A DNA stretch of 29,311 bases, taken from the IMG/VR virus record IMGVR_UViG_3300031696_000036, positions 1 through 29,311 of that record, one strand, 5' to 3'. The stretch is from a virus. The translations under genes and the position numbers were made by a program. Below the pieces are notes generated by a model. It ran no database searches, was not told the origin of the DNA, and saw only the letters and a list, made by a program, of their open reading frames with translations. Of the stretch, positions 1 to 29,241 are shown one piece after another; within the stretch, counting starts at the first letter, position 1; the number at the start of each line of letters is the position of its first letter.

Positions 1-3000
1 TCCGACCGTCCCCAACCTAAATCACTGATTGGTGAGGTGTATGATGACACTTCAAGGATGAATGAGCCTCCCATAACAGGGACTCCATGCGTATGTCCGA
101 AGCGCATAACTTGCTTCGCGCTTGATAAGTTCAAAACTGTCATATCAAAGTCATCTAATGTTCGGTCGGTTGTTTTGACTCCTCCCTCTAATATGAAACG
201 CTGTCCTACTGCGCGGTCGGTATGGAGGCTTACTGCTTCTGTTCCAATGATTGCGTAGTTCTTGTCAACCTCGTCAATGGTGTGTGCGTCAATCCCTATC
301 ATTGGGGATGCGCGCGATATTGGTTCTTGTATAGATTGGTTAGCAGGTAAGAATGCTGATTCAATAGACGCGGTGTTAGAGCCAACCATAGCGGCAGGCT
401 TGAGTAATCCATCATCAGCGGCAATGTCCAACCTGCTACTGATACCATGAGGGACTTCATAATTCTGTAAGGTGAGATTGGATGCGCGGATATATCCACT
501 TGTGAATGGAGGTTCGGATGTGTGGTGAGATAGCATCATACCGGATAGTTGGATTCTTGTATCAACCGATTGCAGGATGTCCTCATTGAATACTGTCGGC
601 CAACGAACACCTCGCCCGTCTCCTCTATCACCCACACGCTTTGCTGTTGCAGGGTTGAAGAAGTCAATTACTGCTAACGCCGCACCTGTTGTCCCTCGTT
701 GCACCACCATCGCTTCTGCGCTCACTGTTCTGTCAGTTGCGCGGTAAGCATCTTCGGGGTCCCATGATGGGCGAATACCAAACCCGCGAACAGGGAATCT
801 GCGCACTTCTTCTCCGGTGGTGTTACCCCACCAATCAACCATGTAGTGCGCTTGAGCGAGCGCGAGGCTCACCCTTTGGTCATCAACATCTGTCCCTTCA
901 AGACCCGTAGGTGTGTCTCCGTGGAACAATCTAAATCCTGTTGTTGGATTGATTATGTTACGAACTGCACATCCGAATGATTTCGTCATACGACGACCGT
1001 GGCTGTAACGAACTTGCTGTCCTTTGAGGTCGCTACCAATCAAGGCTGATGCGTTAGTGTGTCGCTCAAGAATACCTGTGTAAGATTGAAGGAAAGTTGC
1101 ATTTGTGTCACGCGCAGAACTGCCAGCACCAGCACCTTCGCTGAATGTGATTCCTGTCCCTGCTTCGTTTGAAACATAAGGTCCGTCAAGGTTGAAATGG
1201 TAAGATGCGTAAGGGTCACGAAGCCCTTGTCCGCCTTTAACAGCCCAACGAGGTCTGTTGTATGGTTGGCGAACTGATACTCGGTAGCCCGTCCCTACGC
1301 GTCGTTTTGTGTTGACACCTCCGATAGAGTCAGTCAAGCCTGTTGGGTCTGTCTCCTCTATCTTCACACCGTCGTCAGCAATACCGCTTGTTCCTGTGTC
1401 AAGTTGAATCTTACCATCGTTCGCTCCCCACCCGATAGAGGCTGTCCCGTATAGGGTCATAGAACTCATCTGCGCACCGAAGCGATGACCACCCGGCCAA
1501 AATGAACCAAAGTTGTATTCCCGCGCCGATGAATCAACTCCGGCTTGGTGAGGGTATTCGGTGTCTGTCCAATCATGAACTAACCCATCACCCGGTCCGT
1601 CTAAGCCGCGCATACGGAACTTGAACGGTCCGTCACTCATAGCGTATGTGAATTCGTGATAATGAACTGTCTCAAAATGTTCGGGTAGGTGATTGTAAGG
1701 TGCTTTGTCAACCGCCGCATCAGTAGCGTTCGTCCTTGAATCGGAGAACCAAGTCATCGGGCGACCGAGATTATAATGCCATAGACATAGATATGCGTCT
1801 GCCGGATTACCGGAATTGGTGTCGCGCGTTCCGGTTAACAACTGTGTGAGGTTACGAGTTGCTACACTTGTTTCGGAATTAGTATAGACCTCTCCTGCGA
1901 GAAGTGTAGCCGATGGTCCGGTAAGACGAATAGTTTGACCGGGTGCGAGTTTACCCCACGAGAAGGCGCTTGGTGTCCCACTCAAAGTAAACACTGTCGT
2001 GTTAGAACCGGCGGTTGGGTTGCTGATATATCCTCTATCAGTATATGAGAAGTAATGAACAACTCCATCGGTTCCCTCAATCGCTAATTGGTGTTGCTTG
2101 TAACTTAATCCAACAAGAGGGAACAGTGCATTGTTATCAACAAATATCTTGTATGCTCCTGCGCCTCCTGTTGAATCAATTCTCTTGATTATACATGTTG
2201 GGGTGAGAGAGGTAAGGTATTCTGTATAGACATCAAGGTAGTGAGAAGGATAGCCGGTCATCGTTAATTGACACCCAACGCCTCCAAGCGTTGAGCGACA
2301 GAAGAGGTAGTAATCATCGGGGTGGTAGTGTTCTGTCTGCATCCATTTGTTACCCGCGAAGACCGTAGTATGGTCGTATGCGACAGCCCACCACGGCACT
2401 GTTACTGTTCGCGCAGGAGTTGCTCGGCGGAACATGTTAGGGTGGTATGGTAGCGAGCGACGAGTAAACGCGCCGGATGATGATGCATTGATACCGAATG
2501 GGTTCTGCAAACCAAGAAGAGGTAGGCTTGTAAATTGCTCTCGTGATGAAGGGTCAACATCAAGCATCAACTCATTAAGGTATATCTCGCATCCGCGCAC
2601 ATCAGCCATTGTTGCTTCGGATAGGATGAGGTCGGAACTACCATTTGCCCACTGAACGGCTACAACAGTCGCAATCATTTGGTCTGTGAGTAAAGGCTTT
2701 GTTGCTGTCGCGGAGTTAGCAGGGTCAAGAGGTGCGGCGGCGGAGGAGAAAACCGTGTTCGCATTGTTACCCATCAACTGCTGACTGAACAAGTTTGGCT
2801 GAATCACAATTTGATATGCTCCTACTTCAAGCGGGTCGGGGAAGTTCCAAGATGTGTTGTAGTTAGTTCCCGACTCTAACTCAATGCGATGCCCGCCTGC
2901 GGCGTTACAAGTTGCGCTCTCATCAGCGATTCCATAACCATCAAATCGGATTTTGGTTTCGGTGAGTAATGTGAATCCATCCCCATGAATGTCACTCGGA

Positions 3001-6000
3001 GGAGAAGGTGCGGTTGCGCCGGAGAACCACACAAGCGTATCGCGATGTTGCTCAACATCAGCATACCCTGCGACTTGTTCCGCTGATAATGTTGCAGGGG
3101 CGCAAGCGTATGAATTTTGATTTATGACTTGGTAAGCAGGGTGTGCTAAGTGACCCGGCATTGTAGCCATAGTCGGCGTAACATAGTGATGCCCCATACG
3201 CGGCAAAGGCATTGGTGTGAGTTTGTTAGCGGCTCTTACTGCTGTGGCGGGGCTTGTGGTTGCACCGACACCGGCCCAATCGGTGAGAGGTTTGTCGGGG
3301 CTGTTACCACTCACTTCTGCGTGGTCGCGTAGTCGTCGCGCGGCGAAGTGTCGGGTCGTCCCCGCAGGAATGTAATGAGATGGTTTGATTACATCCCCAA
3401 CTTTACCTGCGAAATCGGGCGTGAACACAACTTCTGTGAACTTATTCAATGAAGGGTCGGGGATTGTTGTGAATGAAGCAACGCTTCCGTTAACTACCAC
3501 GAAGCAACGCCCATCCGGTGTAGCGTTCTGTTGCCATATTGATGCTGTGATTGTTCCCGATACTGTAATGTAATCAGTTCCTATTTCTGTAACGGTTAAT
3601 GCATTATGAGTCATGACTCCTGCAACGATACCAAGTGGTTCTCGTTCAGTGTATGTGTGTCCCATCTTTGTGATATGGAAATACAATGCGCGGTCGTGAG
3701 GCTCGTATGCGGTCTTGAGTATATTGTCCTCGTTAAGAGAACTAACACTGTCGGGGAAAGAATTCGGGTTGCCATCAATATGCTCGTAGCCGAGTTGCTC
3801 CCAATAAGGGGCTGTGGTTGGAGTTTTGCCATCAGCGGCGAATGCCTCAGTAACAGCAGGGATTGGTTGGTTTGTGTGTTGTAGCCCTCCATCACCCATA
3901 GTTTCATTTTGGTATGCTTGTAGCCTATCAAACCCGCTACGGATAAGAATGTTAGATGGTATTTCATCATGGTTGGGTAGTTGAATCCTCATGTTTGGTT
4001 CAACACCGGCTCTTGCGAGAGCAGGGGCAAGACCTTCTGTTGCGCGGTCTTGGATGAGTTTGTAGTCACGGATAACAATACCGAGTGGAGAACCTCCGGC
4101 GAGCGTATGTATTTGACCTGTATCGTCTTCAACATTTATCTTCTCAAACTGCATCTCCTCGTTAGGAATAGTGAGAGCGTTTCGTATCTCGTAAGGGAAC
4201 TGCTCAGCCAATGACGGGTGAGCCAATTCTTGCGCTTGTATGATTGGGAACATTGAATTGTTGGTTGTCTCAAAAGAGAAACGAGTGTTACCATAAATGG
4301 TTTCTCCTAACTTGTAATGCGTATCTCCTACCTTATGGTATTGCCACGGTATAGAACCAAGCCCTCGCGCATTAGGAGCAGGTAGTGTAAGGTTGCCTCC
4401 ACTCATTCGTTTCCATACGACATGCTCAACAAAGAAATTACGAGCCGCGCTACGAGTTTTACCGTAGGTGAGAACATCTGTGAGATGGTCATTATATGAA
4501 TCGTAGCCTTTAGAATTACTGATTGCTGTTTCGCTATCAAATAATGTCTCGCTTGCGTCGCCGGTTGAATAATTCTTAACTCCGGGGTTCAAATCGCTAT
4601 TGTAAAACAAATCTCCTGTTGGGAACAGGCAGGTGTCCATTTGGAATAGAGTTGTTTGGGTGGAGTCTGTTGTTTGGGCTAACGCGCTTTCTGTTGGTTG
4701 CCCTCTCCCGCTATCATATTGCGCTTCAACATGAGGACCGGCGTTTGATTCAGCACTAAATCTGTCACTGTTGAATCGCTCATTATGATACGCGATGGAT
4801 GTTCCGCCCATTGTTGCGCTACCTGTGTCTGTATCTCGCCATTTGAGTTGGAGCATATCACCACATGTGCTTTGACCGTTACGCGCGGCTTTGGCGATAA
4901 TGGGTAAGTCGCCTTCGTATGATATTGCCACATAATGTCGTTGGTGTAACCCCGATACAGCAGGATGAGATGACACCGATGGCACTACTGATACTGTGCC
5001 GTTTTCGGAGGGGTTTGCTACTATGCTCATTGAGATACTGTTAACTGTGTGGCAAGTTTGTGACGGGCCGTAAGGATTGAAACCGGATGCGGGGTTCCAA
5101 GCACCAAGACCTGCGGCTACTTTCGTTCCTATGTTGAGGCTATTGAAATATGAATAACGCTCTCCATGCCATCCCACAGCACCGACAGCGCGCGTCCTGT
5201 CAATAGCATCATGCACCCCCGAAAAGTGGACTTGAGTTGCCGCAAAGTGGTCATATGCACTATTGGTTGGAGTTGATGTGCTTGTTACTCCGGTGTCACG
5301 AGTTGAAATTGCGGCCTCTTGGAAGCCGTTATCCCATCTTAGATTACCTGTTTTAGACCACACATAAATACGATGGCCGGATGGAGTTAGCGAGGCCACA
5401 GCCCCATTAGCAAGGCCACCTACGGCTGTGCTTTTAGCAGGGTCTTCTAATTTATTCAAACCACTTCTATGGTTAGCGCCAAGAATAAATACACCCTTAT
5501 TGGTGGAGGCTTGTTTCGCTATGTGAGAATAGTAACCATAAAACACATCACCATTTGAGTTGCCAACTTTGTTACTCACCCTAATCCAACCGTTTTCCGG
5601 TATGGTGTCGGGTAGTATGTTATCCGCTATGACAAGACCGTCTGTTGAATCGTAAGACGCAAACGCTGAGCAGTCAACCCAACCATATCGGTCTTGCCGC
5701 TGTCCATCTTGAAACGATGGTAGGAATGAACCACCAATGGCTTTGAGGTTTGCAGGACCCGGCCAAGTATTGATAGCGGCGGCGATAACAGCACCCAACT
5801 CTTCGCTGTTTTGACAGCGCGTAGCATCAATAAGGAATGCGTCATCGGGAGTGCCGCTTGCGTGTTCTGTATCATACGCCTTTGCGACAATTGCACCTAC
5901 ACGGAACATCGTAGCGTTTAGACCTGTGATTACTACTTGACCGTTAATGGTTGCAGATTGAGAAGATTGAATCGTTGCGCCTGTGATTGGATGAGGAGGG

Positions 6001-9000
6001 TTCTTTCTCACCGTATCATCAAACCAAGAGCCGCCGGGAGCATATCCACCATCAAGATGGAATATCATTTTGTTGTTCTTGGAGGGGTCGGTAGTGATAC
6101 CGGAAGCCGCATAACGAATTACTGCTTGGTAGTGAGAGTATGGATGCGCGTAAATGTTAGCGGCTGTATCGTTTGTTGATACCGAACCAAAGTGATGTGT
6201 TACATTAAGAGAATGGGTTGCGAGGGTTTGATTGAAATTGGTGTTAGGAGAACCAAGAGGAGTCTCCCAATGTGTAAAGGATTTGTAAGGGAATAGGTTC
6301 TTTGCTACATACGCGGTTGTGCGCGGCAAGAAAGAATTGTCGCCGCTATCAAGGGTGGTGTTACCTAACTCGTTAGGCAACCCGTAAGCATTTTGTGTGT
6401 GCATCTCAAACTCATTTGATGCTCCATTCTCAGTCATATAATGTTGCGCGGCAACAGTCCATTTAGCAGAAGGTTCGGTTGAGGTAGTCATGAGTTGAGA
6501 TTCACCCTTCCAATGCTTAGGTGCGGCTTGACCCGGACCAAAGATGATGTATGCGACGCTGTTGTTACCATCTGTATAACGCGCGTATGGGTGAGCAAAA
6601 CGAAGAATCACAGGAGTTGGTTTGACAACTTTCACATTGGTGTATGTTCGTGTTGCTACGGTGTGTGCCGCACCGTTCATGTCTTCGGACAAGATTGCAT
6701 CTTGATTCGCGAATGGAGGGATTGTGGAACCATGCATTTGGTTCAGTAAAGGAGTGCCGGGGAACATAGCAAGTAATGCTGTTGCGTCAAGTAAAGCGTA
6801 GGCTCCCATATTCTCTCCGATATTCTGCATACCTGCGCTACCTGTCGGGCCGCTTGCGTAAGGGTGTTCGTTATGTTCGGTGTAATCAGTTTTGCTACCG
6901 TCGTTCACATCAAGAGACACACCGCTAAACCCTCCACCGAAATACAGTGGTATGCTGTGGTCTGCGCTATCATGCGCGCCGCGGAAATAGGTAAGAGGTT
7001 GGCCTCTTCTGCTACCATCTAAGCGAATACCTGCGAATTTCTTATCAACACCTTTGTATCTTTGCCCGTATATTCGTAGTGTTGCGGCATCTATTCCTAC
7101 GATTGAATTTATTTGATTGGAGAGTGCGCCATAAGGGTGTGTTTTCTCAAAACTTCTTTGCCAAACCCTACCATCAATACCTTTGGTGGTGTCTGCGCCC
7201 AAGAAGCGTATTTTATCACCAACGGGATATACAAGCATAGAATCTGCTTCGGTAACATATAATTTAGTCGGAGCGACCCAATTAAATTCTCGCTGGAATC
7301 CACTTGCGACATTATATAATGAATCGCCCAAATCAAGGTGATTCGTTTGAAATGCTTTCTCTCGCCCATACGGACCAAGCAAAAAGTCTCCATTAGCGCT
7401 CCAACGGTAAGATTTGTCTTCGTGGCGAGTTATTCCTGCAATCGCCACAACGGTAAAATCCGAAGAAGAGGCTTGGGAGATTTGCACTTTGCCGCCACTA
7501 CCCGCCGCCGCGGGGTCAACAACATCAAAGTTATCTCCTATACTATATCCGTAAGTTCCGACATCAACAAGCGGTGTGATAATCTTAGTTAGCACCCCTC
7601 CATCCACTTCAAACTGAGCCTGTCCTTTTGTCACCCCTCCGACTTGTAAGTTGTAAGTTGTGTCTGCTGAGTAACCGCTACCAAGACCGGCGCTAACAGT
7701 CTCAAGTATAATATGAACATTATCCGAAGCCCCTATACCTTGTGCGAAAAGTAGGTCGCCGTTGGCATATCCTGTTCCTGCGTTTGTTATCGTGATTGAA
7801 TCTGCGTCGGGTCGCCCGCCTGTTACTCCACTAAAGGTGCATTGCGCACCACTACCCAACCCGCCTATAAGGCTGTAAGTTGTGCTTGTAGCATAACCCG
7901 TCGCGGTGATGGGGTTATAGAATGCGTAAGTATCAATAGTTCCAACCCCTATCACATATCTATAATCAAAAACCCCGTAGGTGTCTCCGACAGCATACCC
8001 CGACCCCGCACTACCCATGCTATCAATTAAACGAGGGCCTCTCCAATCAAATAATACACTGTGTCGCGCACCGCTACCGCTACCTGTCAATGTGTGAGTC
8101 TTGTATTCTTTACCGGACTCCCATAAGTCGCCCGAACCACTATTAGCCTCAGCGTATAGAATCGGCTGAGTGATTTCCTCGCTAAGTTTGACAGGCATAT
8201 TATGTAGTAATGGTGTGATATGGTCGCCCGGATGGGATGTGAAATACTCTCCGCGTAAGTGCTTTTTCCATTCGCTTGTGTTGATTGGGTTGTTGTTATA
8301 ATCAATAACGACAGGGGTTGCGGTATTGGCATTATATCCACGAGCGCGAGTAGTAACATGCAACAATGTTTTCGGTATATAACCCGCGTCAAACATCATG
8401 CCGGAATTGATTTCGTCATTTGATAACCCACCCATGTGGACATTCGCTCCCGCGTCCGGCACTGTGCTTGTTGATGCGGTAGTCATTACCGAAGATGTTA
8501 GTATTCCCCAATCTTCGCTTAGTTCTATGCTGAACATATCCTTTAGGGGTAACACTTTTTTCTTGGGGTTGAAGGCTTTGATTTTAATAGCGGTCTGTGC
8601 TTTCTCCCCCATCCAATCAGCGTATGTTCGTCCGTCGGGGGCGAACATCTCACTACAATCAAAAGTCATCACCTCACCGCTGTCAGCCTCAAAATCAAAC
8701 GCCGCGGCAGTAGCCGCCGCCATAAGTTCATCAGTTAAGATTGTAGTTTGGTTAAGGTAAGGGCTTATGGTGACAGGGTTCTTAGTGTCGGACGAGGTTT
8801 GAGGGCCGTTTTTAGCAACTGCGAAGTAATTAGCCATAGCAGACGCGTTTAGACCCGTCAAGCCGAAAAAGGCGTGTTCTCCATCCTTGTCATCATGGGT
8901 GCGAGAAGCGTAGTGTAACACAAGCCCTGTCACTCCCGCGTGTGTTGATGAAGTTGTGTTGTTGCCGTCATCAATAGAAATCCAAACCAAACCACTATCG

Positions 9001-12000
9001 GGGAATCCTAACCACCCTAATACATCTTTTCCTTCCGCAGATAGAGAGGAGGCAGGGTCGGGTAATCTATGCCAAATCCCTGTGTCGTCGTTTCCGATGT
9101 TGCTACCTTTTGCTAAAATAAGAGATGCAGGATGCGCGTAGTTTACAGTTGATGTAGTAGCCACGACTGTAATTGTAGCGTCGTTAGTTCCTCCGTTAAT
9201 GACCAACACATCACCAACCGCATATCCTGTCCCTGCTGTTATCAATGAGGATATACCTGTTACTTGTCCCGACCCGTTCACGGTAACTTGAATTTGGCCG
9301 CTTTGGCCTATACCTCCACCAATTCGTGATTGCATTATCACATCGTATGTGGTGCTTCCCGCGTAGCCGCTTGTTCCCGCGGTAGTGATGGTGTGTGAAG
9401 TCCCGCTAAGATTTCCGCTTGTAAGATAAGTCTTTGGTGATACTGTTACTGCATAGCCATTATTGGGAACATGAATTCCTCTAAATGTATTACCACGATG
9501 TGATTCAAGCCCTACGGAAGCAGGTTGGAATCTCTCAACAGGAGTGCCGTTAGCGCCAATCCCCCACATTCTATCACCTAATGTAAAACCCCCTTGTGAA
9601 ACATCTCGGTCATCAAAATGAATGATTATTTCCTCGTCAATAGTAGGAGGCATTGGAGAGTTTTTATGAGTGTATGAGACTCCTTCTTGACGATACACAT
9701 AGCGGATGATATGATTCTTGCCGAGATGGTCCGTTAATTTCATACCGTAAAGATTTGTTCCAATCCCAACATTGTTGGTGTCAACATCCGTGGCCGGAAC
9801 ATACACACCATAAGACGAATAGGAAAGGTGGGTCGTTGGGATATTTTGACCGTAAATGTTAAGGAAACGATTGTTTGAATCACCTTCTTCTCCGAATCCC
9901 CACTTACCCGCGTCGGGTGCAAAGCCGGGAATACCGCTTGCTACAAGACCACCAAAGTTTATCCGCGCGGAAGCAGTTGTTCCTTTTTGTAGCCCTTCGC
10001 GCACTGTGTATTGTTGCCCTTCGTCTTCAAAGGATTCCATATTGATAGTGTTTGAATTGCGTCCTGTTGTTGCTTCGCTATTGATTGTTGATTGGTCGTT
10101 ATTACCAAGTGTTGCAGTATCGTTAGTGTTAAGGTCTTTATCAGTGCCGAGATTTTGAGAGTTGATAACATCGCCTTCAACTTCATCAATCGGTAAATAC
10201 TGACGGAGAGTAGTAATTGGTGCGAACGGCTTACCGTTTTTATCAATAGGCATTGGCGCAGGGTGCATATTTTCACCTGTTAGTTCGGGTTGGTTACAGA
10301 AGAAATTGCGGAAATGCCCACCATGCCCGATTAAGAACTGAGGTTTGTATTCGGTTTGTCCTTTGCTGTTGTCTAACCAAGCACAGAAGTTTCGGCCCGC
10401 CGCACCCGGAACAGTGCTATGCACTACAACGGTGAATCCTTCGTTACCGTCTATGTCTTCAACTACACGGCCAATATGCGCGCGCATGTAACCCATATGT
10501 GAACCTCTATCGTAAGATGTGAAAGCGGTATCATCCCAAAACGGTGCGGGGTCGTGAGTGCTACCTGTGGTTGCAAAATCAGCATGGTGGTGAGCCGATG
10601 TAGGGTCGCTTGGTTCGTTAGTGTCATCACCGCTTGCTGATATAGCGCGCCTGTTAATATCAAAGCGTTCGCCCTCGGCAGGGTATTGGTCGGACGGTCG
10701 TCGCTGACTACTCTTCCCGTTCTTAGCACCTGCTTGATTGATAAGTCTAACAACTTCTTTAGCCGCGGCCTGTATGTCGGTCACACCGTCTTTGATACCT
10801 ACTTCACCAAAATCAATAGTGAGTCTGCGTGTGAAATCCATAGCATACCATTGTGGTAAATGCTGTATGTTAGTCTCGTTATGCGAGGATAGGGACAGGT
10901 TACTACCTCGCTTACCTTTCATACACAAGAAAGCAGGTATCACTCGTGTCCCATCCGGTGTGTCAAAGAAGCGAGAGTTGAATTTGTAACTTGCTGTGCC
11001 TGTCAACGCTGAGGGTGTCTTGAGCATATTTTGAGTGTGTCTCGCTTGCGCGGCAGTATCATCTATAACGCTCGGTTCAACCCTGTCATGTTCTGCTGAT
11101 GACACAGAAGCCGTCTTGACGAAGTGACGAGTCTGTCGGCTACCTCTATTGAAGTTGCCCGATGGTGCGGTATTATACCCTTCATCCATCAAATACCAAG
11201 ATGCATGAGCGTATGCACCTTCAACGAATTGCGAATGCCCTTGCTCGTCTTCAAAGGTGTAATCTGCGCCACCTATGGTGACGACCTTCCCTCCTGTGCG
11301 ATTAGGGTTTTTGTCCTTTCTTTGAGTAGCGAAACCTGCCGCTACATCAAGTTCGTTGATTTGAGGTGTTGTAGCGCTTGATTGAACTTGCATCTGTAAA
11401 TCATGGAATGCGATAAACTCACGGTCATGTGCGACATCGTAAAGGAGAACGCGCGCGTGTTGTTCTGTGCTGAGATAAGGGTCAAGGTAAGCAACAATTG
11501 GTGCGTTAGTGGAGTGACCTAACTCGCTCCAATTCAACTCAATGGTTTTATTGACATGTTGAACAAAGTTGCGCGCCGTCTCTAAACAAGTGTCACCAAT
11601 TAAGAAGTTCTCTATCGGTAGCGAATCGCGCGCTTGTGTTGCTAAATCCCCTTTACCACCATTGAAACTTGTCCATACCTCATATTCATTGAGAACGCCT
11701 CGCGATTTAGCGAATAACCCCTCAATCGCATGTGGGTTGGTGTAGTGCATATTCATCCAAATGGTGTCACCGTAGCGCAATCCACCTGCGCAATAAGGGT
11801 GGTTCCATGTTTGGTTAAGGCATCCATCTTGAACAGTCTTTGGGTAAACGGTAGTGGTTGATGATACTATACCTGTAATGGTAAGAACATCTCCGACCAC
11901 AGGAGCGATTGTATTGTAGTAAACGGTGACTTGGTTCTCATCCGCAGATGAGTCATAGATAAATGTCCCAACATCACCATTTGTCTCATTAATACAAGAG

Positions 12001-15000
12001 AATCTATCATAATTGGTAGGTAATATCCCTCTTGGTAATACACCATTTATATTCTCAAAGCGAACAACTTGAGGATTCGTTGCGCTTGTAAGTTCTAACA
12101 CTTTAATGCGTGTTACGCCGGTTTGGATGCGCGCAAGGTGAGGATTTGATAACGGGCCTGCTTTAAACTCAACAGCACTTACATATTGTCGTAATCCGTA
12201 ATCCACATTACCTCCTTGAGTTTGAGAGTTTGCTCGGTCATAATAGAATGGTTTACGATATTCGTTAGCCGAAGTGAAAGTATCTTGGGAATCATCAGTG
12301 AGAAGAGGTTTGAAAACTTTGAATGGTAGTTGACCGACTGTTAAAACCGAGCCGCTTGTTAAATCTTGAAAGAAGTTTTCACTATGGTGAGAGGCAAAGG
12401 TGAGTAATTCAATGCGGTTTAGGGTAGTATCAGTTCTGCCGGGACTGTCGTCTATAACATAGTAACACCATTCGCCATTGTCAAGATATACTTTTCTAAG
12501 CCAATTTTGAGCATCCAATCCCGCAATATCTCCGGTAGCAGTCAAACTGCTTTTTGGTATTCGTTCAATATGACCTGCTTTGAATTGGACATAATACCCA
12601 ATGATACTACTTACAGTAATTTTATGAATTGAAGTTACTTCAACGCGGGTAGGTTCATCATTGTAAGTGCGCTTGTAGTAAGGACCGAATGCTTCGTGGT
12701 CTATGGCGGGTTTGTTTGTTGCGCGCCTACCAACAGGGGAAGGACTCCAAGTGTGGGCTGTCATTGTAGCGTCAAGATGAACCTTCATGCTGTTGCCCGG
12801 ACCGGGGAATACACCGTTCTCGCGGTCTTTAAAGAATTGATTAGGGAATAGAGGTATCTCAACAAGAGAACGAGTTGATGCATATTGTGTTCCTAACTGA
12901 TAATCATGAGAGATGGTTCCTAACGATTGGAATAAACGGTCATTGACAGTTGTGCCATCCGCGCAAACGCTTTGAGTATTAAATTCGGGGTCAAGTAATA
13001 TCTCAGTGCCTACATCAATTTTGTTAACCACGGCCCAATTATGCATATTGCCCGCGGTAGTGCCGTTGGAGTTAACGAACACACCCTCGTGTCCATACTT
13101 CAAAGCGTAAGCGTTTGCGGCTAAATCAAACACAAACGCGTTTGCGGTTCTTGATTCGTAATGAGCGTAGGCTCCGTTAGGGAAATGTATTTTACCTGTT
13201 GGCGGGAAGCAATAAGTCCCCCAAGACGCAAGATTAGCAGACTCGTTATTTAGAGGAACGACTTCAATACTTGCTGTTAATACATGAGGCCACCCTGCCG
13301 ACCCCACGGTGTTCGGTATTCTATACACCTTAACCGAGCAACCTCTTCTTGTATTCCATCCGATACGCGCGAGAGGGCTTGGGTCCCACGATGGTTTTGT
13401 GTTGATTGCTCCTTGTCCTGCACCTCCGAGAGTGACAGAAACGACAGGCGCACCCGGCATAATTTCCTTTACGCCGTGAGAATCGGGAGAGCCGTCTCCT
13501 GTGTATGATGCGCTTTGGTCTGCGACATCCGACATCAGCCCGCGAACCCTCATAACTACATCGCGAGTGCCTTGTTTCTCAACGATTTGAAAAGAGTTTA
13601 CTCTCCCCTGCCCTTGAATAAACTCAATACTCGCGTATGTGTGGTCTAACGGGTCATTAGTAGTCCCAACTGTGCGTGATAATTGCATTGAGCGCGAGTG
13701 TTGAGAAGGCTGAACGATAATATGATGCTCGTTATTGAGTTTGTAATTGTCAATAATGTCAAAGACTTCGTATGCCGCGCCTTGCTGAGAGGCAAACTGT
13801 TCATTCTCTTGGTAGTGCGCAGGTGATAAATCAATAGGAGGGTCGCTTTGCGACCTCTCGTTGGGGTGCAACAGTAACCGATGGTAAACTGATGGGTGAG
13901 ACGACTCTTCGTTAGATGAGGATATACCTATCGGGCCTGTTTGTGGTAAGTCGGTTACTGATACAGGCGTATAATTAGCAGGTAGTCTTGACTCGTCTAA
14001 CTCAATCTCTTTCTCGCTACCACCTGTGTTATCACCTACCAATCTATGAGGGTTCATTACAGTATGAGCCTCTCCAACCGCGCTATTGCTAAGGGTGACT
14101 ATTCCACCGGCTGAGTGTATAAGTGCGCCTATTGCATCTGTTATATGCTGAGCAACTGTGTCACCATCAATTGTGACATTAGCGCTCGGCACTGTTTTCT
14201 CAACTATCAAACAAGGCTTATCAACACCCATTTTAGCACCTGTTAAGTCAATCGCGTTGTAATGAATTTCAACATAAGGTAAAGATGCTACCCCGTCCAC
14301 TTCCATAATAGCAACGCGAGAAGTGTCTTCGGGGATTAAGTGCAATTTATGTGCGGCGCTATCAGTTGTCACATCCTCAATACCGTGACCTTTGAGAAGG
14401 AACGGGCGTATATCATCAACCCCAATAGCAATGACCCCATCGTTGTAAGCCCCTACAATACCCCCCATACCGTTACGGGTAACATGTGTAGTGGTTGCGC
14501 TTGTTGTCACCTTACGGATAGCACCGTTGAATGCTGTGTAAGCCATAGATACACGCGAGTTAATTGGTAATTGGTCCTTGATGCCGATATGCGCGGCAGG
14601 GAATGTTGCTCTCATAGTGTCTGCGATACCATCAATGGTGCGCGTAATCACTTCTTTTGAGGAAGGTGGTAACATTCTCAAGAATGAATGACCTTCAAGG
14701 TGGTTGTATTTGTGTCGCCCGCTATGACCGCGTTGGAATTTATCATCAATTGTCCAATTCGCAGTAGCAACTGTGAAAGGATTCCCACTTGTATTGACAG
14801 AACACTGTCTTGAATATATGAATCCGTGAAAGTCATTCCCGCTTTCGTCTATAACCATAGCCCCGTTCCTATCAATTGCTTGAGTTGCGGCCCCTTGCAT
14901 TTGATACGGTTTACCGCTTTGGCTATCAATTAGTAAATCCGAACGGATGACAACGACTGTGCTGTCCGAGGCTAAATTGGTTGTTGAATCATAGGCTGTG

Positions 15001-16085
15001 CGCGCATGTAATATACCTCTTGAGCCTGTGTCTGCTGTTGTGTTAAAATCAAGATGTATGCTTTGAACTGTGACTGTTCCCGATGACTGTATGCTTACCA
15101 ATCTAACTCTTTCGGGAGGTTTACTGTTAGGTAGCGTAGTATTAATGTCTGTTCCGGTTGGATTGATTAAGAGATTGATTTGACAGTGCGCAACGCTAAT
15201 CACTTGCGCGCCACCGCTATGGGCTGAGTTAGCGATACGATAACTACCAAGACTTTCGGGGGTGTAAGTTCCGCTAAAGGTGTCACTCTTACCGCTAATT
15301 GACTGATAGAGTGTTTGAACCTGTGTGGTGTCAAGGGTGAGTGTAGTATCGCCTGCTGATGCGCTTGACTTGATATGGTATGTGTTCGCATCGGTTTCAA
15401 CAGGCTCTTCAAATCTCCAAAGACCTAATGTTGTTCCTGTTTTCATAAAGGCGAGAGGGCGTAAATCGCTTCCTTTAGCACCTCTTTGCCAATGAACTGA
15501 TTCTATGAATCCTCGGTATTCGCCACCTTTACCACCAAGATACAAGTCTTTATCGTTAACTTTCGTAGTGTAAGACCCATTAAGTTTCTCGGTAGCCATA
15601 ACTTCTCCGTTCACATAAAGTTTGACTTGTCCTCCGGTGAAGATACCGCAGATGTGGTAAAGTTCTCGTTGGGAAGTGCTGACTCCATTGTTGTTAGTAA
15701 TGAACGAAGCGGCGCTGGTAGGGTAGTTGTTCTTAGAATAAGCCGCGACAGTCACGCCACTGTCTAAAGTAACTTCAAAAGAAGCAGGTGCGGGTGCGCC
15801 AACGCTACCCATTCTTAGAGCAAAAGTTCCTTCTTTAGATGCGATAATTCCTCCGCAGTCGGGAGATACCCATGCTTCAATCGTGAAGGAGGTAAGAGAT
15901 TGATTTTTTGAAAAGGCATGTCTTAGCGAATCCCCATCTTGGACAACATGCGCTGAGGTTCGCGCGTCATCCCCATTCAATTTGATTTTATGTCCGGTTT
16001 GGCTGAACCCACCTTGAGGACAAACGATACTGTCGTTGACCCCATTGAAATACAAACTATGACTTGACTTCCCGAATAGTGACAT
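1..16085 (-). CDS. Giant tail tip/fibre protein, at least 5361 residues (C-terminus beyond window)
   Basis: From the ATG at 16085, which overlaps the upstream stop as TAATG, one minus-strand frame appears open to the window edge, giving 5361 complete codons without a stop. The smaller open frames in the region lie in other frames and look like shadows. Residues about 8-227 form a LamG/concanavalin-like jelly roll. The remainder is Gly, Thr, Asn, His and Tyr rich, beta-strand-like, without signal peptide or membrane segments. It includes GYAxGD repeats near residues 2215-2310 and 2670-2885 and recurrent AHPY motifs. Position after tape measure and distal tail genes, plus an N-terminal sugar-binding-type fold, point to a tail tip, fibre or adhesion protein. 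The size is far beyond ordinary tail fibres of 500-2000 residues. No enzymatic domain was recognised. Confidence 0.85.
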   Translation of the reverse strand, partial: MSLFGKSSHSLYFNGVNDSIVCPQGGFSQTGHKIKLNGDDARTSAHVVQDGDSLRHAFSKNQSLTSFTIEAWVSPDCGGIIASKEGTFALRMGSVGAPAPASFEVTLDSGVTVAAYSKNNYPTSAASFITNNNGVSTSQRELYHICGIFTGGQVKLYVNGEVMATEKLNGSYTTKVNDKDLYLGGKGGEYRGFIESVHWQRGAKGSDLRPLAFMKTGTTLGLWRFEEPVETDANTYHIKSSASAGDTTLTLDTTQVQTLYQSISGKSDTFSGTYTPESLGSYRIANSAHSGGAQVISVAHCQINLLINPTGTDINTTLPNSKPPERVRLVSIQSSGTVTVQSIHLDFNTTADTGSRGILHARTAYDSTTNLASDSTVVVIRSDLLIDSQSGKPYQMQGAATQAIDRNGAMVIDESGNDFHGFIYSRQCSVNTSGNPFTVATANWTIDDKFQRGHSGRHKYNHLEGHSFLRMLPPSSKEVITRTIDGIADTMRATFPAAHIGIKDQLPINSRVSMAYTAFNGAIRKVTTSATTTHVTRNGMGGIVGAYNDGVIAIGVDDIRPFLLKGHGIEDVTTDSAAHKLHLIPEDTSRVAIMEVDGVASLPYVEIHYNAIDLTGAKMGVDKPCLIVEKTVPSANVTIDGDTVAQHITDAIGALIHSAGGIVTLSNSAVGEAHTVMNPHRLVGDNTGGSEKEIELDESRLPANYTPVSVTDLPQTGPIGISSSNEESSHPSVYHRLLLHPNERSQSDPPIDLSPAHYQENEQFASQQGAAYEVFDIIDNYKLNNEHHIIVQPSQHSRSMQLSRTVGTTNDPLDHTYASIEFIQGQGRVNSFQIVEKQGTRDVVMRVRGLMSDVADQSASYTGDGSPDSHGVKEIMPGAPVVSVTLGGAGQGAINTKPSWDPSPLARIGWNTRRGCSVKVYRIPNTVGSAGWPHVLTASIEVVPLNNESANLASWGTYCFPPTGKIHFPNGAYAHYESRTANAFVFDLAANAYALKYGHEGVFVNSNGTTAGNMHNWAVVNKIDVGTEILLDPEFNTQSVCADGTTVNDRLFQSLGTISHDYQLGTQYASTRSLVEIPLFPNQFFKDRENGVFPGPGNSMKVHLDATMTAHTWSPSPVGRRATNKPAIDHEAFGPYYKRTYNDEPTRVEVTSIHKITVSSIIGYYVQFKAGHIERIPKSSLTATGDIAGLDAQNWLRKVYLDNGEWCYYVIDDSPGRTDTTLNRIELLTFASHHSENFFQDLTSGSVLTVGQLPFKVFKPLLTDDSQDTFTSANEYRKPFYYDRANSQTQGGNVDYGLRQYVSAVEFKAGPLSNPHLARIQTGVTRIKVLELTSATNPQVVRFENINGVLPRGILPTNYDRFSCINETNGDVGTFIYDSSADENQVTVYYNTIAPVVGDVLTITGIVSSTTTVYPKTVQDGCLNQTWNHPYCAGGLRYGDTIWMNMHYTNPHAIEGLFAKSRGVLNEYEVWTSFNGGKGDLATQARDSLPIENFLIGDTCLETARNFVQHVNKTIELNWSELGHSTNAPIVAYLDPYLSTEQHARVLLYDVAHDREFIAFHDLQMQVQSSATTPQINELDVAAGFATQRKDKNPNRTGGKVVTIGGADYTFEDEQGHSQFVEGAYAHASWYLMDEGYNTAPSGNFNRGSRQTRHFVKTASVSSAEHDRVEPSVIDDTAAQARHTQNMLKTPSALTGTASYKFNSRFFDTPDGTRVIPAFLCMKGKRGSNLSLSSHNETNIQHLPQWYAMDFTRRLTIDFGEVGIKDGVTDIQAAAKEVVRLINQAGAKNGKSSQRRPSDQYPAEGERFDINRRAISASGDDTNEPSDPTSAHHHADFATTGSTHDPAPFWDDTAFTSYDRGSHMGYMRAHIGRVVEDIDGNEGFTVVVHSTVPGAAGRNFCAWLDNSKGQTEYKPQFLIGHGGHFRNFFCNQPELTGENMHPAPMPIDKNGKPFAPITTLRQYLPIDEVEGDVINSQNLGTDKDLNTNDTATLGNNDQSTINSEATTGRNSNTINMESFEDEGQQYTVREGLQKGTTASARINFGGLVASGIPGFAPDAGKWGFGEEGDSNNRFLNIYGQNIPTTHLSYSSYGVYVPATDVDTNNVGIGTNLYGMKLTDHLGKNHIIRYVYRQEGVSYTHKNSPMPPTIDEEIIIHFDDRDVSQGGFTLGDRMWGIGANGTPVERFQPASVGLESHRGNTFRGIHVPNNGYAVTVSPKTYLTSGNLSGTSHTITTAGTSGYAGSTTYDVIMQSRIGGGIGQSGQIQVTVNGSGQVTGISSLITAGTGYAVGDVLVINGGTNDATITVVATTSTVNYAHPASLILAKGSNIGNDDTGIWHRLPDPASSLSAEGKDVLGWLGFPDSGLVWISIDDGNNTTSSTHAGVTGLVLHYASRTHDDKDGEHAFFGLTGLNASAMANYFAVAKNGPQTSSDTKNPVTISPYLNQTTILTDELMAAATAAAFDFEADSGEVMTFDCSEMFAPDGRTYADWMGEKAQTAIKIKAFNPKKKVLPLKDMFSIELSEDWGILTSSVMTTASTSTVPDAGANVHMGGLSNDEINSGMMFDAGYIPKTLLHVTTRARGYNANTATPVVIDYNNNPINTSEWKKHLRGEYFTSHPGDHITPLLHNMPVKLSEEITQPILYAEANSGSGDLWESGKEYKTHTLTGSGSGARHSVLFDWRGPRLIDSMGSAGSGYAVGDTYGVFDYRYVIGVGTIDTYAFYNPITATGYATSTTYSLIGGLGSGAQCTFSGVTGGRPDADSITITNAGTGYANGDLLFAQGIGASDNVHIILETVSAGLGSGYSADTTYNLQVGGVTKGQAQFEVDGGVLTKIITPLVDVGTYGYSIGDNFDVVDPAAAGSGGKVQISQASSSDFTVVAIAGITRHEDKSYRWSANGDFLLGPYGREKAFQTNHLDLGDSLYNVASGFQREFNWVAPTKLYVTEADSMLVYPVGDKIRFLGADTTKGIDGRVWQRSFEKTHPYGALSNQINSIVGIDAATLRIYGQRYKGVDKKFAGIRLDGSRRGQPLTYFRGAHDSADHSIPLYFGGGFSGVSLDVNDGSKTDYTEHNEHPYASGPTGSAGMQNIGENMGAYALLDATALLAMFPGTPLLNQMHGSTIPPFANQDAILSEDMNGAAHTVATRTYTNVKVVKPTPVILRFAHPYARYTDGNNSVAYIIFGPGQAAPKHWKGESQLMTTSTEPSAKWTVAAQHYMTENGASNEFEMHTQNAYGLPNELGNTTLDSGDNSFLPRTTAYVAKNLFPYKSFTHWETPLGSPNTNFNQTLATHSLNVTHHFGSVSTNDTAANIYAHPYSHYQAVIRYAASGITTDPSKNNKMIFHLDGGYAPGGSWFDDTVRKNPPHPITGATIQSSQSATINGQVVITGLNATMFRVGAIVAKAYDTEHASGTPDDAFLIDATRCQNSEELGAVIAAAINTWPGPANLKAIGGSFLPSFQDGQRQDRYGWVDCSAFASYDSTDGLVIADNILPDTIPENGWIRVSNKVGNSNGDVFYGYYSHIAKQASTNKGVFILGANHRSGLNKLEDPAKSTAVGGLANGAVASLTPSGHRIYVWSKTGNLRWDNGFQEAAISTRDTGVTSTSTPTNSAYDHFAATQVHFSGVHDAIDRTRAVGAVGWHGERYSYFNSLNIGTKVAAGLGAWNPASGFNPYGPSQTCHTVNSISMSIVANPSENGTVSVVPSVSSHPAVSGLHQRHYVAISYEGDLPIIAKAARNGQSTCGDMLQLKWRDTDTGSATMGGTSIAYHNERFNSDRFSAESNAGPHVEAQYDSGRGQPTESALAQTTDSTQTTLFQMDTCLFPTGDLFYNSDLNPGVKNYSTGDASETLFDSETAISNSKGYDSYNDHLTDVLTYGKTRSAARNFFVEHVVWKRMSGGNLTLPAPNARGLGSIPWQYHKVGDTHYKLGETIYGNTRFSFETTNNSMFPIIQAQELAHPSLAEQFPYEIRNALTIPNEEMQFEKINVEDDTGQIHTLAGGSPLGIVIRDYKLIQDRATEGLAPALARAGVEPNMRIQLPNHDEIPSNILIRSGFDRLQAYQNETMGDGGLQHTNQPIPAVTEAFAADGKTPTTAPYWEQLGYEHIDGNPNSFPDSVSSLNEDNILKTAYEPHDRALYFHITKMGHTYTEREPLGIVAGVMTHNALTVTEIGTDYITVSGTITASIWQQNATPDGRCFVVVNGSVASFTTIPDPSLNKFTEVVFTPDFAGKVGDVIKPSHYIPAGTTRHFAARRLRDHAEVSGNSPDKPLTDWAGVGATTSPATAVRAANKLTPMPLPRMGHHYVTPTMATMPGHLAHPAYQVINQNSYACAPATLSAEQVAGYADVEQHRDTLVWFSGATAPSPPSDIHGDGFTLLTETKIRFDGYGIADESATCNAAGGHRIELESGTNYNTSWNFPDPLEVGAYQIVIQPNLFSQQLMGNNANTVFSSAAAPLDPANSATATKPLLTDQMIATVVAVQWANGSSDLILSEATMADVRGCEIYLNELMLDVDPSSREQFTSLPLLGLQNPFGINASSSGAFTRRSLPYHPNMFRRATPARTVTVPWWAVAYDHTTVFAGNKWMQTEHYHPDDYYLFCRSTLGGVGCQLTMTGYPSHYLDVYTEYLTSLTPTCIIKRIDSTGGAGAYKIFVDNNALFPLVGLSYKQHQLAIEGTDGVVHYFSYTDRGYISNPTAGSNTTVFTLSGTPSAFSWGKLAPGQTIRLTGPSATLLAGEVYTNSETSVATRNLTQLLTGTRDTNSGNPADAYLCLWHYNLGRPMTWFSDSRTNATDAAVDKAPYNHLPEHFETVHYHEFTYAMSDGPFKFRMRGLDGPGDGLVHDWTDTEYPHQAGVDSSAREYNFGSFWPGGHRFGAQMSSMTLYGTASIGWGANDGKIQLDTGTSGIADDGVKIEETDPTGLTDSIGGVNTKRRVGTGYRVSVRQPYNRPRWAVKGGQGLRDPYASYHFNLDGPYVSNEAGTGITFSEGAGAGSSARDTNATFLQSYTGILERHTNASALIGSDLKGQQVRYSHGRRMTKSFGCAVRNIINPTTGFRLFHGDTPTGLEGTDVDDQRVSLALAQAHYMVDWWGNTTGEEVRRFPVRGFGIRPSWDPEDAYRATDRTVSAEAMVVQRGTTGAALAVIDFFNPATAKRVGDRGDGRGVRWPTVFNEDILQSVDTRIQLSGMMLSHHTSEPPFTSGYIRASNLTLQNYEVPHGISSRLDIAADDGLLKPAAMVGSNTASIESAFLPANQSIQEPISRASPMIGIDAHTIDEVDKNYAIIGTEAVSLHTDRAVGQRFILEGGVKTTDRTLDDFDMTVLNLSSAKQVMRFGHTHGVPVMGGSFILEVSSYTSPISDLGWGRS
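7440..8070 (-). repeat. Cluster of GYAxGD / GYxxxTTY protein repeats in the giant protein
   Basis: Residues about 2672-2882 contain a run of related units: SAGSGYAVGDTYGV, TATGYATSTTYSLIGG, SITITNAGTGYANGDLLFAQ, GSGYSADTTYNLQVGG, and GTYGYSIGDNFDVV. They alternate two half-motifs, suggesting a row of small beta modules. DNA identity between copies is low, so the duplication is old. Confidence 0.75.
9150..9440 (-). repeat. GYAxGD-type protein repeat unit in the giant protein
   Basis: Around residues 2216-2312 the giant protein reads TAGTSGYAGSTTYDV, then GGGIGQSGQIQVTVNGSG, then SLITAGTGYAVGDVLVINGG. The two half-motifs, GYA-x-x-TTY and ITxAGTGYAxGDxL, recur further on in the protein (7440-8070) and in part in the tail tube protein. 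Confidence 0.75.
15404..16064 (-). other. LamG/concanavalin-like domain at the N-terminus of the giant protein
   Basis: Residues about 8-227 show the order of strands typical of LamG-type jelly rolls: SLYFNGVNDSIV at the start, SLTSFTIEAWVSPDCGGIIA near 63-82, ELYHICGIFTGGQVKLYVNG near 141-160, KDLYLGGKGGEYRGFIESVH near 179-198, and a closing GLWRFEE near 221. The family commonly binds carbohydrates or proteins. Only this N-terminal copy was recognised. Confidence 0.8.
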
Positions 16086-17296
16086 TATAACCCCACCATG
16101 AAATCAAGAGGTTGGAATGTAATAGTCCCCTCATAAATGTTATTTCCGGCATCGTAACCCATGTTCATACCTACAACAGTGCCGCGTATGCCTGTGAACT
16201 TATCTCTCACATCAAAGACAACACCGGAGGGTAACACATTACCTGTGGAGGATTGAGATTCTGCGCTGTTGAAACCTGTAATCACGAGTAAATTGCGCGT
16301 GACATAGCCATCGTTGACAGCATCAACGGCTGTCTTCTGCACTAATGAATTGTAGGGTAGTTGCAATCCGACAATATAATCGGTTCCTAAGTCTCCACTT
16401 AGAGTGCTTAGTTCACCCGATAGGTCAAACCCACCGGCTTCGCCACCGGCTTCGCTACCGAACGCGTCAAACAGACTACCAACTGCCCCCATCAAAGAAG
16501 CGTTGCTCACATAAGCGATAAGGTCTTGCAACTTATCACCTGCGCTTTTACAATTATGCGCGCTACCACCCTTGAAGGCTGTATGGAATGGTTTTGGTAA
16601 ATCTTCGTTATCAGTATCAGTCCAAAAAGTTGGAGTAGCGTTGTTACCATTCCCGCCTAATTCAACTTGTGTGATGGTGAGTTTTGAATTGCCTGTCGCG
16701 CTTAGTTTACCTGCACTGACTGATGTGGTGAATATACTTGCAAAAGTTGTCGCGCCGGATGTGGCGACTTGGGTAGTGCTGTAATCGCTTGCGTCAAGCG
16801 CGGTCTTGATTGCGCCTGCTAACGATGCCGCATTTGTAACGCCTTGAATGCCGACTATTGTTGTTGGGTTAGCACCTCCGGCGTTTGAGGAGTGACTTGC
16901 TGAGCCTGTGTTAAGCAGGACGCGTATAGGCATTCTAAGGCGACTTGTGGATTGATACAATGAAGATATGTTAAATGATTTGCCGTCTAAATCGGCAAGG
17001 TCCACTGTGTCACCAAACCATTGTTGTGTCACGCCCCCTGTTGTGTCAGCCCCCGCACCAAAATCAATTGAGCAAGATGCGGCTCGGCTTTGATATTCTG
17101 TTGCCGCGCAATCATCATCAACCAATATAACATCTATTTGGATGTCGGTAGCGACAGTGTTTGTATCAATACCCATTCTCTCAGCGAGAACAGGGACAGG
17201 AATGACAGGAACGGAACGAGTTACATTTAGAGAGAACGATGTTGCGTCAAGAGTGAGCAACCCACCGTCTTTTCTAACAAGGCGTATTTTTGGCAT
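16085..17296 (-). CDS. Distal tail / baseplate protein (403 aa)
   Basis: A 403-residue protein between the tape measure gene and the giant tail gene, where distal tail or baseplate hub proteins are coded. It opens with a beta-rich domain (MPKIRLVRKDGGLLTLDATS, then LNVTRSVPVIPV and IDVILVDDD). A Gly/Ser/Thr-rich middle includes TNAASLAGAIKTALDASDYS and a beta run ending QVELGGNGNN. The end is a beta domain (VVFDVRDKFTGIRGTVVGMN, then EGTITFQPLDFMVGL). The ends together look like one domain with a large insertion near residues 135-245. I do not recognise a named family; the role is inferred from position. A 12-base tandem duplication gives EAGGEAGG. Both its start and its stop are TAATG overlaps, so it is probably translationally coupled on both sides. 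Confidence 0.65.
   Translation of the reverse strand: MPKIRLVRKDGGLLTLDATSFSLNVTRSVPVIPVPVLAERMGIDTNTVATDIQIDVILVDDDCAATEYQSRAASCSIDFGAGADTTGGVTQQWFGDTVDLADLDGKSFNISSLYQSTSRLRMPIRVLLNTGSASHSSNAGGANPTTIVGIQGVTNAASLAGAIKTALDASDYSTTQVATSGATTFASIFTTSVSAGKLSATGNSKLTITQVELGGNGNNATPTFWTDTDNEDLPKPFHTAFKGGSAHNCKSAGDKLQDLIAYVSNASLMGAVGSLFDAFGSEAGGEAGGFDLSGELSTLSGDLGTDYIVGLQLPYNSLVQKTAVDAVNDGYVTRNLLVITGFNSAESQSSTGNVLPSGVVFDVRDKFTGIRGTVVGMNMGYDAGNNIYEGTITFQPLDFMVGL
16431..16454. repeat. 12-base tandem repeat, two copies
   Basis: CCACCGGCTTCG occurs twice head to tail in the plus strand. On the coding strand it encodes the duplicated tetrapeptide EAGG in the distal tail protein, a recent in-frame slippage duplication in a flexible Gly-rich linker. 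Confidence 0.85.
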
Positions 17297-19065
17297 TACA
17301 ATGCACCTCTCCTTGTTCCCATAGAGCGACCGGAACGGAACATCTCGTCACGGATAGCGTCACCGATTTCACGAGCAAGCGCGCGCTTATCGCTTCTGTC
17401 TGTTACACCGCCAACATTGATGTTGATAGTGACAGGTCCCGTGTTGTTTGTCTTGTTCTCATTTCCACCTAAACCAATACCTTTGGGATTGTTTCGTTGG
17501 CTTAGAGGAATAACCGCCTCCGGCCCATCTTCGCCAATCAAAGCGAAGGTTGGTTTATTCACAATACCACCCTTTGCGAGTTTCGCAATTTGTGGTAGTT
17601 GAAACCCTTGACCTCCAATATGCGGAACCCAATCGGGTATAGAAAAACTCATCTTGCCCGCAAAGGAATTATAAATACCTGCGATACCATTGAATACACT
17701 TTTCGCCGCATCAATAGCAGTTCTTGTCACCAAAGGCCCTATACCTGTCAACCATGATAAAAAGCCTCTCCATCCTTTCTTTCCGCTTGCTTTCCAAGAT
17801 GCTTGTAGGTCAGTCCAAAGTTTTTTCGCGAATACGAACGGGAGTAATATAAGACCAACAACGGTTGATACGAATAAAAGCCCTACCCCTATGATTGAAA
17901 CAACGAAAGAAGCCACAAATGCTACTATACCGCCAATAATTGCGGCAACCCATCCAAGAACCCACCCACCAAAGGCGAGTATTCCTTCAACGAACAATGT
18001 TCCGTAATGCACTATCTCGTCCCAATAGCGATAGACGAGCGCGGCAACGAAGAGCATTATGGCTATGACAGCAACGAACGGTGCGAGGATAGGGAATAGT
18101 ATAGCAAGTCCTATCGCGACAGCCGTAGCGCCAACAGCCGCCAATAGCCATCCTAACCATCCACCAATCTTACCCGTAGCGAACAGGTATAATATAGTCA
18201 AACCGCCCATGATGAGAGCAATACCAATCAATATCGGTGCGAACGCCATCATCCAAGCGGCGGCAGACGCTATGGCGGCGGAGGAGGACATAGTGCCTAA
18301 CCAAATGAATGCGGCGGCAAGAAGAAGTGCCACCGTAGTAGCCGCCGCCATAGCCACATAGACATTATCAAATTCTTTCAGCACCAACTGATACGCGCCA
18401 TAAACAAGGATTGCTGAAAACGCAAGTGCGGCAATCGGGCCACCTAACAACATGAAGGCTACGAAGCCCACCGTCGCGGCGGCGGCAATTATAGTTAAAG
18501 CACCATATAAACCACCTTCGCCCTCACCTGTGAGAGCCAAAACAAGCCCTTTAGCGGCCTCATCAATACCCCACATTCCTTCGGTCAAATCAAGTATAGG
18601 ACTGTCGGCTCCTTGAAATGCTAACATAACTATACCGAAAGCGAACGCTACCATCGCAAATATCGCCACCAACGAGAACACACTCATGAGCATCTTCAAG
18701 AACATATTATTGGTTTTCCCACCAATCTTATTCATCATTTTTGCTATACCTGTATGAAAAATCATAGTAGCGGTGAGTTTAGTTAAACCTTTCATCTCCT
18801 TTTCCATCTCATCTAATTTCTCTTCACCTACGCTACGGGCTTTGACTGTGTATTCACCGAGTTGCTTGAAGGATTTGAAATAACCTCTCATCGCTCTCCC
18901 TGTTTTCACATAGGGGTTTTTATCATACGCCTTCTTGAGTTTATACATCCCTTTCTCTAAATGCCCGCCGGTTTTCTCATTGTGTTTTGTGACGAGTCCA
19001 AGTTCGGTCATGACGGTAATGAGTTGCTCAATATCAACTGTTGTTGCCTGTATCTCACCCGCCAT
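17296..19065 (-). CDS. Tail tape measure protein
   Basis: A 589-residue protein with the hallmark C-terminal tape measure motif GGIVNKPTFALIGEDGPEAV (about residues 490-510), followed by IPL. The N-terminal 120 residues are polar and helical. Residues about 120-410 hold many long hydrophobic stretches, such as SVFSLVAIFAMVAFAFGIVM and LAILFPILAPFVAVIAIMLF, enough for eight or nine membrane segments. Tape measure proteins set tail length and are ejected before the DNA, where such segments can span the host membrane. At the usual 0.15 nm per residue the length predicts a tail of roughly 90 nm, a rule-of-thumb estimate. The start follows GAGGGATGAT, and the stop overlaps the next ATG (TAATG). 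Confidence 0.9.
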   Translation of the reverse strand: MAGEIQATTVDIEQLITVMTELGLVTKHNEKTGGHLEKGMYKLKKAYDKNPYVKTGRAMRGYFKSFKQLGEYTVKARSVGEEKLDEMEKEMKGLTKLTATMIFHTGIAKMMNKIGGKTNNMFLKMLMSVFSLVAIFAMVAFAFGIVMLAFQGADSPILDLTEGMWGIDEAAKGLVLALTGEGEGGLYGALTIIAAAATVGFVAFMLLGGPIAALAFSAILVYGAYQLVLKEFDNVYVAMAAATTVALLLAAAFIWLGTMSSSAAIASAAAWMMAFAPILIGIALIMGGLTILYLFATGKIGGWLGWLLAAVGATAVAIGLAILFPILAPFVAVIAIMLFVAALVYRYWDEIVHYGTLFVEGILAFGGWVLGWVAAIIGGIVAFVASFVVSIIGVGLLFVSTVVGLILLPFVFAKKLWTDLQASWKASGKKGWRGFLSWLTGIGPLVTRTAIDAAKSVFNGIAGIYNSFAGKMSFSIPDWVPHIGGQGFQLPQIAKLAKGGIVNKPTFALIGEDGPEAVIPLSQRNNPKGIGLGGNENKTNNTGPVTININVGGVTDRSDKRALAREIGDAIRDEMFRSGRSMGTRRGAL

Positions 19066-19743: not shown

Positions 19744-20068
19744 TACTTACACTTCCTGTTTCGTCGCTTGATGCGGCCTCTTGCGGGGGAGCATCTTCGG
19801 TTACTTCCACAGCCTCTTGCGAGGGGGTGTCCGCTTCCAATAGACGGGCAACTAATTCCGCCTTTTTGCCTGTAACCGCTAAGTCTCTTGCACGACAAAG
19901 CGCGCGTAGTTCTTCAACGGTTAAGGAATTGTAATCTAATTCTTCTTTAGGAAATGGGTTGCCGTCAGTTAAGGCGGCTTCGGGGTGAAAAATGACTTCT
20001 TCAACCTCAATGACTTCTTCAACGACAGGTCTGCGCGTGTCCGAGCCGGGGTGCAAACTTCTCCTCAT
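19706..20068 (-). CDS. SAP-domain protein in the tail module (120 aa)
   Basis: The middle of this 120-residue protein, about residues 45-80, contains a SAP motif: LDYNSLTVEELRALCRARDL, then AVTGKKAELVARLLEAD. It has the two helices with the Gly-Lys turn characteristic of this nucleic-acid-binding family. The flanks are acidic and low in complexity (VVEEVIEVEEVIF before it, Glu/Ser/Thr-rich after it). The same frame opens three codons earlier at GTG 20077. ATG at 20068 is preferred because AGGAGTGA, which includes the upstream stop, lies five bases before it. The last 38 bases overlap the chaperone gene in another frame. SAP-containing proteins in virion modules are known from annotations of tailed viruses, but a specific tail role is unknown. 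Confidence 0.75.
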   Translation of the reverse strand: MRRSLHPGSDTRRPVVEEVIEVEEVIFHPEAALTDGNPFPKEELDYNSLTVEELRALCRARDLAVTGKKAELVARLLEADTPSQEAVEVTEDAPPQEAASSDETGSVSNESEPETTDTVG

Positions 20069-20073
20069 ACGAT

Positions 20074-26600: not shown

Positions 26601-26608
26601 TCACCTCA
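26601..26608 (-). promoter_or_regulatory. Stop/ribosome-binding element TGAGGTGA before the 146-residue gene
   Basis: On the minus strand the bases read TGAGGTGA. The first three are the stop codon of the capsid gene, and GAGGTGA is complementary to the 3' end of 16S rRNA. Six bases separate it from the ATG at 26594. The arrangement couples termination of one gene to initiation of the next. Confidence 0.85.
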
Positions 26609-27763: not shown

Positions 27764-27768
27764 ATTAT

Positions 27769-29214: not shown

Positions 29215-29241
29215 CAAATCTCGTCACGGTTTTCTTGTATA

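Follow-up and report, generated by a model that had tools for sequence, protein, structure and literature searches.

A conserved giant tail-module protein with an N-terminal LamG domain as a candidate tail-tip body of predicted magroviruses

Magroviruses are tailed viruses whose Poseidoniales hosts are archaea abundant in the sea. They make up the order Magrovirales, with Apasviridae, Aoguangviridae and unclassified groups (PMC12999244, PMC10768690). Capsid, portal, tail fibre, baseplate or minor tail proteins are mentioned in the magrovirus literature and no giant protein is; some key papers lie outside the literature covered, so an earlier mention is possible. Laminin_G_3 has been reported as the sole 'auxiliary metabolic gene' common to four magrovirus groups (PMC10160649). 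Among tailed viruses, gp96 of the Thermus phage P23-45 is a tape measure of 5,002 aa fused to an RNA polymerase (PMC10770324).

The stretch of DNA analysed here (the window, IMGVR_UViG_3300031696_000036, 29,311 bases) is the entire public record and represents a genome fragment. Read along the minus strand, a giant gene comes last, after those for prohead protease, HK97-type capsid protein, tail tube protein, tape measure and a 403-aa protein, in this order. The features referred to below are the following.

27769..29217, minus strand: prohead (head maturation) protease
26606..27817, minus strand: HK97-type major capsid protein (PHROG major head protein, E 9.8e-53)
20498..22711, minus strand: tail tube protein, 737 aa (Phage_tube_2)
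17296..19065, minus strand: tape measure protein, 589 aa
16085..17296, minus strand: conserved protein of 403 aa between the tape measure and the giant gene, placed where a distal tail protein would be expected
3..16085, minus strand: giant tail-module gene, ATG start, 5,361 codons, open at the contig edge
15489..15899, minus strand: Laminin_G_3 domain (PF13385; LamG, concanavalin A-like), residues 63-199 of the giant protein, Pfam E 1.5e-13
13536..16085, minus strand: residues 1-850, chain of beta-rich domains, model of good confidence
8886..9335, minus strand: variable insert zone, residues 2251-2400, small GTGYxxGD-type domains
7086..8435, minus strand: variable insert zone, residues 2551-3000, another GTGYxxGD-type copy, highest dN/dS in residues 2701-3000

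The nearest annotated relatives of the capsid protein were those of Druskaviridae haloviruses, at about 33% identity. The tailed dsDNA gene set and this Druskaviridae-related capsid are common to the window and the magroviruses, as are, in related contigs, a family B DNA polymerase in the long ones, a chaperonin and genomes of about 90-118 kb (PMC12999244, PMC10768690). The polymerase was present in all eight of the giant-gene relatives searched that reach 90 kb or more; the window stops short of that module, and contigs with the giant gene reach 118 kb. By gene content, capsid relationship and published descriptions, the virus is therefore assigned to the magroviruses (PMC12999244, PMC10768690, PMC10160649), a placement to order only, as named magrovirus genomes were absent from the collection compared. 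Judging from the published magrovirus group, the host would be a Poseidoniales archaeon.

Druskaviridae HCTV-1 and HVTV-1 resemble the window in the related capsid and share its overall arrangement of genes as far as the tape measure. After the tape measure, in contrast, they encode several proteins of 150-1,045 aa, none of them detectably related to the giant protein; homology to the HCTV-1 and HVTV-1 tail proteins was rejected, as profile comparison never rose above 5% probability. No tRNA was found in the window. At 737 aa, the tail tube protein is of unusual length and seems to bear a small GxxVGD-type domain, as in the insert zone of the giant protein. Two small proteins of the head-tail module (19706-20077 and 25756-26142, both on the minus strand) appear by eye to carry SAP/HeH-like DNA-binding helices, which would be odd at that place, and the latter matched an Arc-like repressor in PHROG (E 4.6e-05). 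The 403-aa protein was without a family match. In three related contigs (3300029787_000010, 3300030117_005706 and 3300025110_000007; G005, G007 and G009) it was matched twice, in separate frames ahead of the giant gene, as if the 403-aa gene had been duplicated.

A first-pass annotation made from the letters alone had claimed a single viral gene of at least 16 kb and more than 5,361 residues, starting at a TAATG overlap at position 16085 and filling 55 percent of the window. All of this held: the minus-strand frame from 16085 to 3 contains no internal stop in its 5,361 codons, occupies 16,083 of the 29,311 bases, and overlaps at its start, in TAATG, the stop of the upstream 403-aa gene. A homologous single frame with stops at both ends, of 5,100-5,980 aa from stop to stop, was found in 13 other IMG/VR contigs, nearly all from separate metagenomes, and further IMG/VR contigs hold a homologue cut by the contig end. 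The number of independent contigs is slightly lower, since G002/G011 and G014/G036 are probable near-duplicate pairs with equal lengths and scores.

The extension of the frame past position 1, which the same annotation had proposed as a check, was made through the nearest relative, IMGVR_UViG_3300025127_000023, whose giant protein (5,657 aa counted from its first Met, about 613 kDa) has 73.5% identity across 5,327 aligned residues. As this relative continues for some 207 residues that are absent from the C terminus in the window, the full-length protein would have approximately 5,570-5,660 aa, which by analogy with the relative means about 610 kDa. The protein had also been ranked among the largest coded by a tailed virus, and it does exceed the 5,002-residue tape measure of P23-45 (PMC10770324).

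Identity among the giant-gene homologues was 42-74% over the whole length. In the comparison with the nearest relative, dN/dS was about 0.10 overall and 0.07-0.25 in the computable slices (18 slices of 300 codons, with synonymous sites saturated in four), with the peak of 0.25 in residues 2701-3000. That the long frame arose through misassembly or by accident has next to no probability, and the relatives already refute this view. It would fit that the window is a fragment whose frame stays open at the contig edge and that the frame is broken in four related contigs, but whole frames of similar length recur in the 13 contigs, homology runs along the entire length, and purifying selection is strong. 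Neither an in-frame stop nor an artefact, named beforehand as what could undo the claim, was seen. Therefore, the giant frame is a real single gene under purifying selection, and neither chance nor artefact.

Pattern scans of IMG/VR yielded 305 N-terminal and 322 C-terminal relatives that were confirmed. In contrast, no relative was detected with the C-terminal profile in a genome collection of 84,980 prokaryote species, nor among cultured phages with the two slices searched. When 20 contigs were picked by a related capsid gene and then checked for the giant gene, it was present in 16, that is, in all 16 with enough DNA beyond the capsid gene; the remaining four stop 1.9-9.5 kb past the capsid gene, whereas the giant gene begins at 10.5 kb in the window. 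The capsid proteins of the carriers were 69-92% identical to that of the window. The giant gene is thus not the oddity of one virus and is carried by every sampled contig of the group that reaches the place. In the four contigs with broken frames the breaks lie at different places in each, and two of the four contain ambiguous bases; they look like sporadic errors, not a common split. Besides frame breaks, two contigs (3300002231_000085 and 3300002242_000338; G017 and G020) have an insertion of about 1.6-2 kb in the giant gene, which lies inside an open frame of 2,005 aa and repeats about 150 residues of adjacent sequence.

The N terminus had been described as a LamG-like fold, and this was corroborated by both Pfam and Foldseek: the Laminin_G_3 match scored 51.6 bits against a curated cut-off of 27.6, and the matches were to LamG and concanavalin-type structures. 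In the N-terminal model, obtained by AlphaFold2 with 52 homologues, the jelly roll corresponds to residues 1-230 approximately. Residues 850-915 and 1035-1150 are highly conserved and were poorly modelled in isolation; they may need partners outside the modelled slice. The C-terminal AlphaFold model had a mean pLDDT of 39.5 and was therefore kept out of the fold search.

Among the top 50 Foldseek matches listed against the PDB, the matches were explained by the LamG or concanavalin-type fold, and long alignments extending past LamG were rejected as evidence because of rmsd values of 15-20 Å. Against viral models, one homologue at 35% identity was found and the rest were mostly LamG proteins, including a LamG-bearing cyanophage 'baseplate wedge initiator' and a 'structural protein', both matched in the LamG part only. 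The homologue is UniProt A0A1B1IU10, a viral protein split into pieces in BFVD, which aligned over 1,227 columns (E 8e-104) along the whole modelled N-terminal slice and was without name or annotation in the tables searched.

Apart from LamG, the giant protein gave no Pfam, PHROG or PDB family match, and sequence searches of solved structures with three profiles gave nothing significant, in agreement with the earlier remark that the rest of the protein had no recognisable domain. The chain is conserved and non-repetitive over nearly its whole length, except for the insert zones at about residues 2,250-3,000. Self-comparison by BLAST gave no self-match, and profile self-comparison limited the repeats to the GTGYxxGD-type domains of the insert zone; a tandem-repeat giant adhesin was therefore rejected, since neither comparison showed long repeat arrays. 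No transmembrane-like stretch was found (highest 19-residue hydropathy, 1.49), and a motif scan detected neither the polymerase motif DxDGD nor HExxH.

In the nearest relative, the giant gene is followed by genes for proteins of 594 and 115 aa, both conserved, a tail fibre of 687 aa and a protein of 240 aa. The first 430 residues or so of the fibre are conserved and the remainder is variable, and the 240-aa protein is nearly private. Host-range fibres and their partners usually show such a pattern, in which the fibre is conserved at the N-terminal end and variable at the other. Because of this pattern, the host-range role probably sits with the separate fibre gene and its 240-aa partner downstream. 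The 594-aa protein was considered as a tail hub; its top match, HVTV-1 gp133, reached only 2% probability and no solved relative was found, so it is a lead only.

On balance, the giant protein (approximately 5,600 residues, about 610 kDa) appears to be the conserved, lectin-bearing tail tip or baseplate body of magroviruses and not the fibre that chiefly sets host range. This reading is suggested by its position after the tape measure and the 403-aa protein and before the genes for the 594-aa protein, the 115-aa protein and the fibre; by its presence in 16 of the 16 sufficiently long capsid-bearing contigs; by the LamG domain and the beta-rich modelled N-terminal part; and by the existence of a separate fibre whose C-terminal part varies while its N-terminal part is conserved. 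Conservation over the whole length and a dN/dS of about 0.1 are as expected of a structural core. Against it counts that no search of Pfam, PHROGs, the PDB sequences or haloviral tail proteins linked it to a hub, Dit or baseplate protein, with the fold search covering the N-terminal model only. The first-pass annotation had placed the gene in the tail tip/fibre position; its location in the tail module, after the tape measure and before the fibre genes, agrees with the tip, whereas the fibre part does not stand, as a separate fibre gene lies three genes downstream.

That the giant protein acts as the principal receptor-binding fibre, in the form of an exceptionally long adhesin fixing host range via lectin domains, is unlikely. 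The N-terminal LamG, the variable insert zones and a further LamG-like insert close to the C-terminal end in two relatives (confirmed by Pfam in one of the 12 members scanned) would fit such a role, but the chain is mostly strongly conserved and non-repetitive, unlike tandem-repeat adhesins, and downstream lie both a separate fibre gene, variable at its C-terminal end, and the nearly private gene of the 240-aa protein. That the chain is a polyprotein, processed into several separate tail proteins once translated, is distinctly less probable: the prohead protease encoded by the virus, the extreme length of the chain and its variable zones, as possible boundaries, are consistent with it, whereas the chain carries no HExxH-type protease motif and no relative was found with an orderly split into separate genes.

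An internal or ejected enzyme-bearing protein, comparable to the N4 virion polymerase or to the P23-45 tape measure with its fused polymerase, is highly improbable. The giant protein shares with gp96 of P23-45 its size class (5,002 aa in the phage; PMC10770324) and its origin in the tail module of a tailed virus, and its conserved segments without a known fold would leave room for an enzyme. Unlike gp96, however, it lacks the DxDGD motif and coexists with a separate tape measure of 589 aa, and what was modelled of it is rich in beta structure and includes a lectin fold.

As a tail-tip body, the giant protein would assemble distally on a short tail and link the tail end, formed by the 403-aa protein, to the ~590-aa protein and the separate tail fibre, with the N-terminal lectin domain and the variable inserts pointing outward to contact glycans of the host surface. 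Its presence in the virion, its location at the tip, its binding of glycans and its copy number are inferred. Tape measures usually correspond to 0.15 nm of tail per residue. At this value, the 589-aa tape measure would limit the tail to about 88 nm, so that the tip would make up much of the tail mass. A wider claim, that the whole baseplate, elsewhere made of several proteins, is encoded here as one chain of about 5,600 residues of mostly new folds and conserved throughout a sea-wide virus group, is rather doubtful; if true, it would mean a single-chain tail tip of megadalton size once assembled.

The giant protein family is already in public data, yet it is undescribed in the accessible literature. 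It is probably a tail-tip protein in a single-chain giant form, in which LamG alone belongs to a known family. The Laminin_G_3 'auxiliary metabolic gene' of magroviruses is probably, at least in part, the first domain of this giant tail-module gene, and a correction of that label is suggested (PMC10160649). One conserved chain this large at the tail tip raises questions of folding, assembly and host attachment, in viruses whose hosts would be archaea known mainly from metagenomes. With regard to folding, the nearest relative encodes a chaperonin close by: a full-length Cpn60/TCP-1 protein (L318:8994-10514, minus strand, of 3300025127_000023; Pfam E 3.6e-108), located on the opposite strand directly beyond the tail genes.
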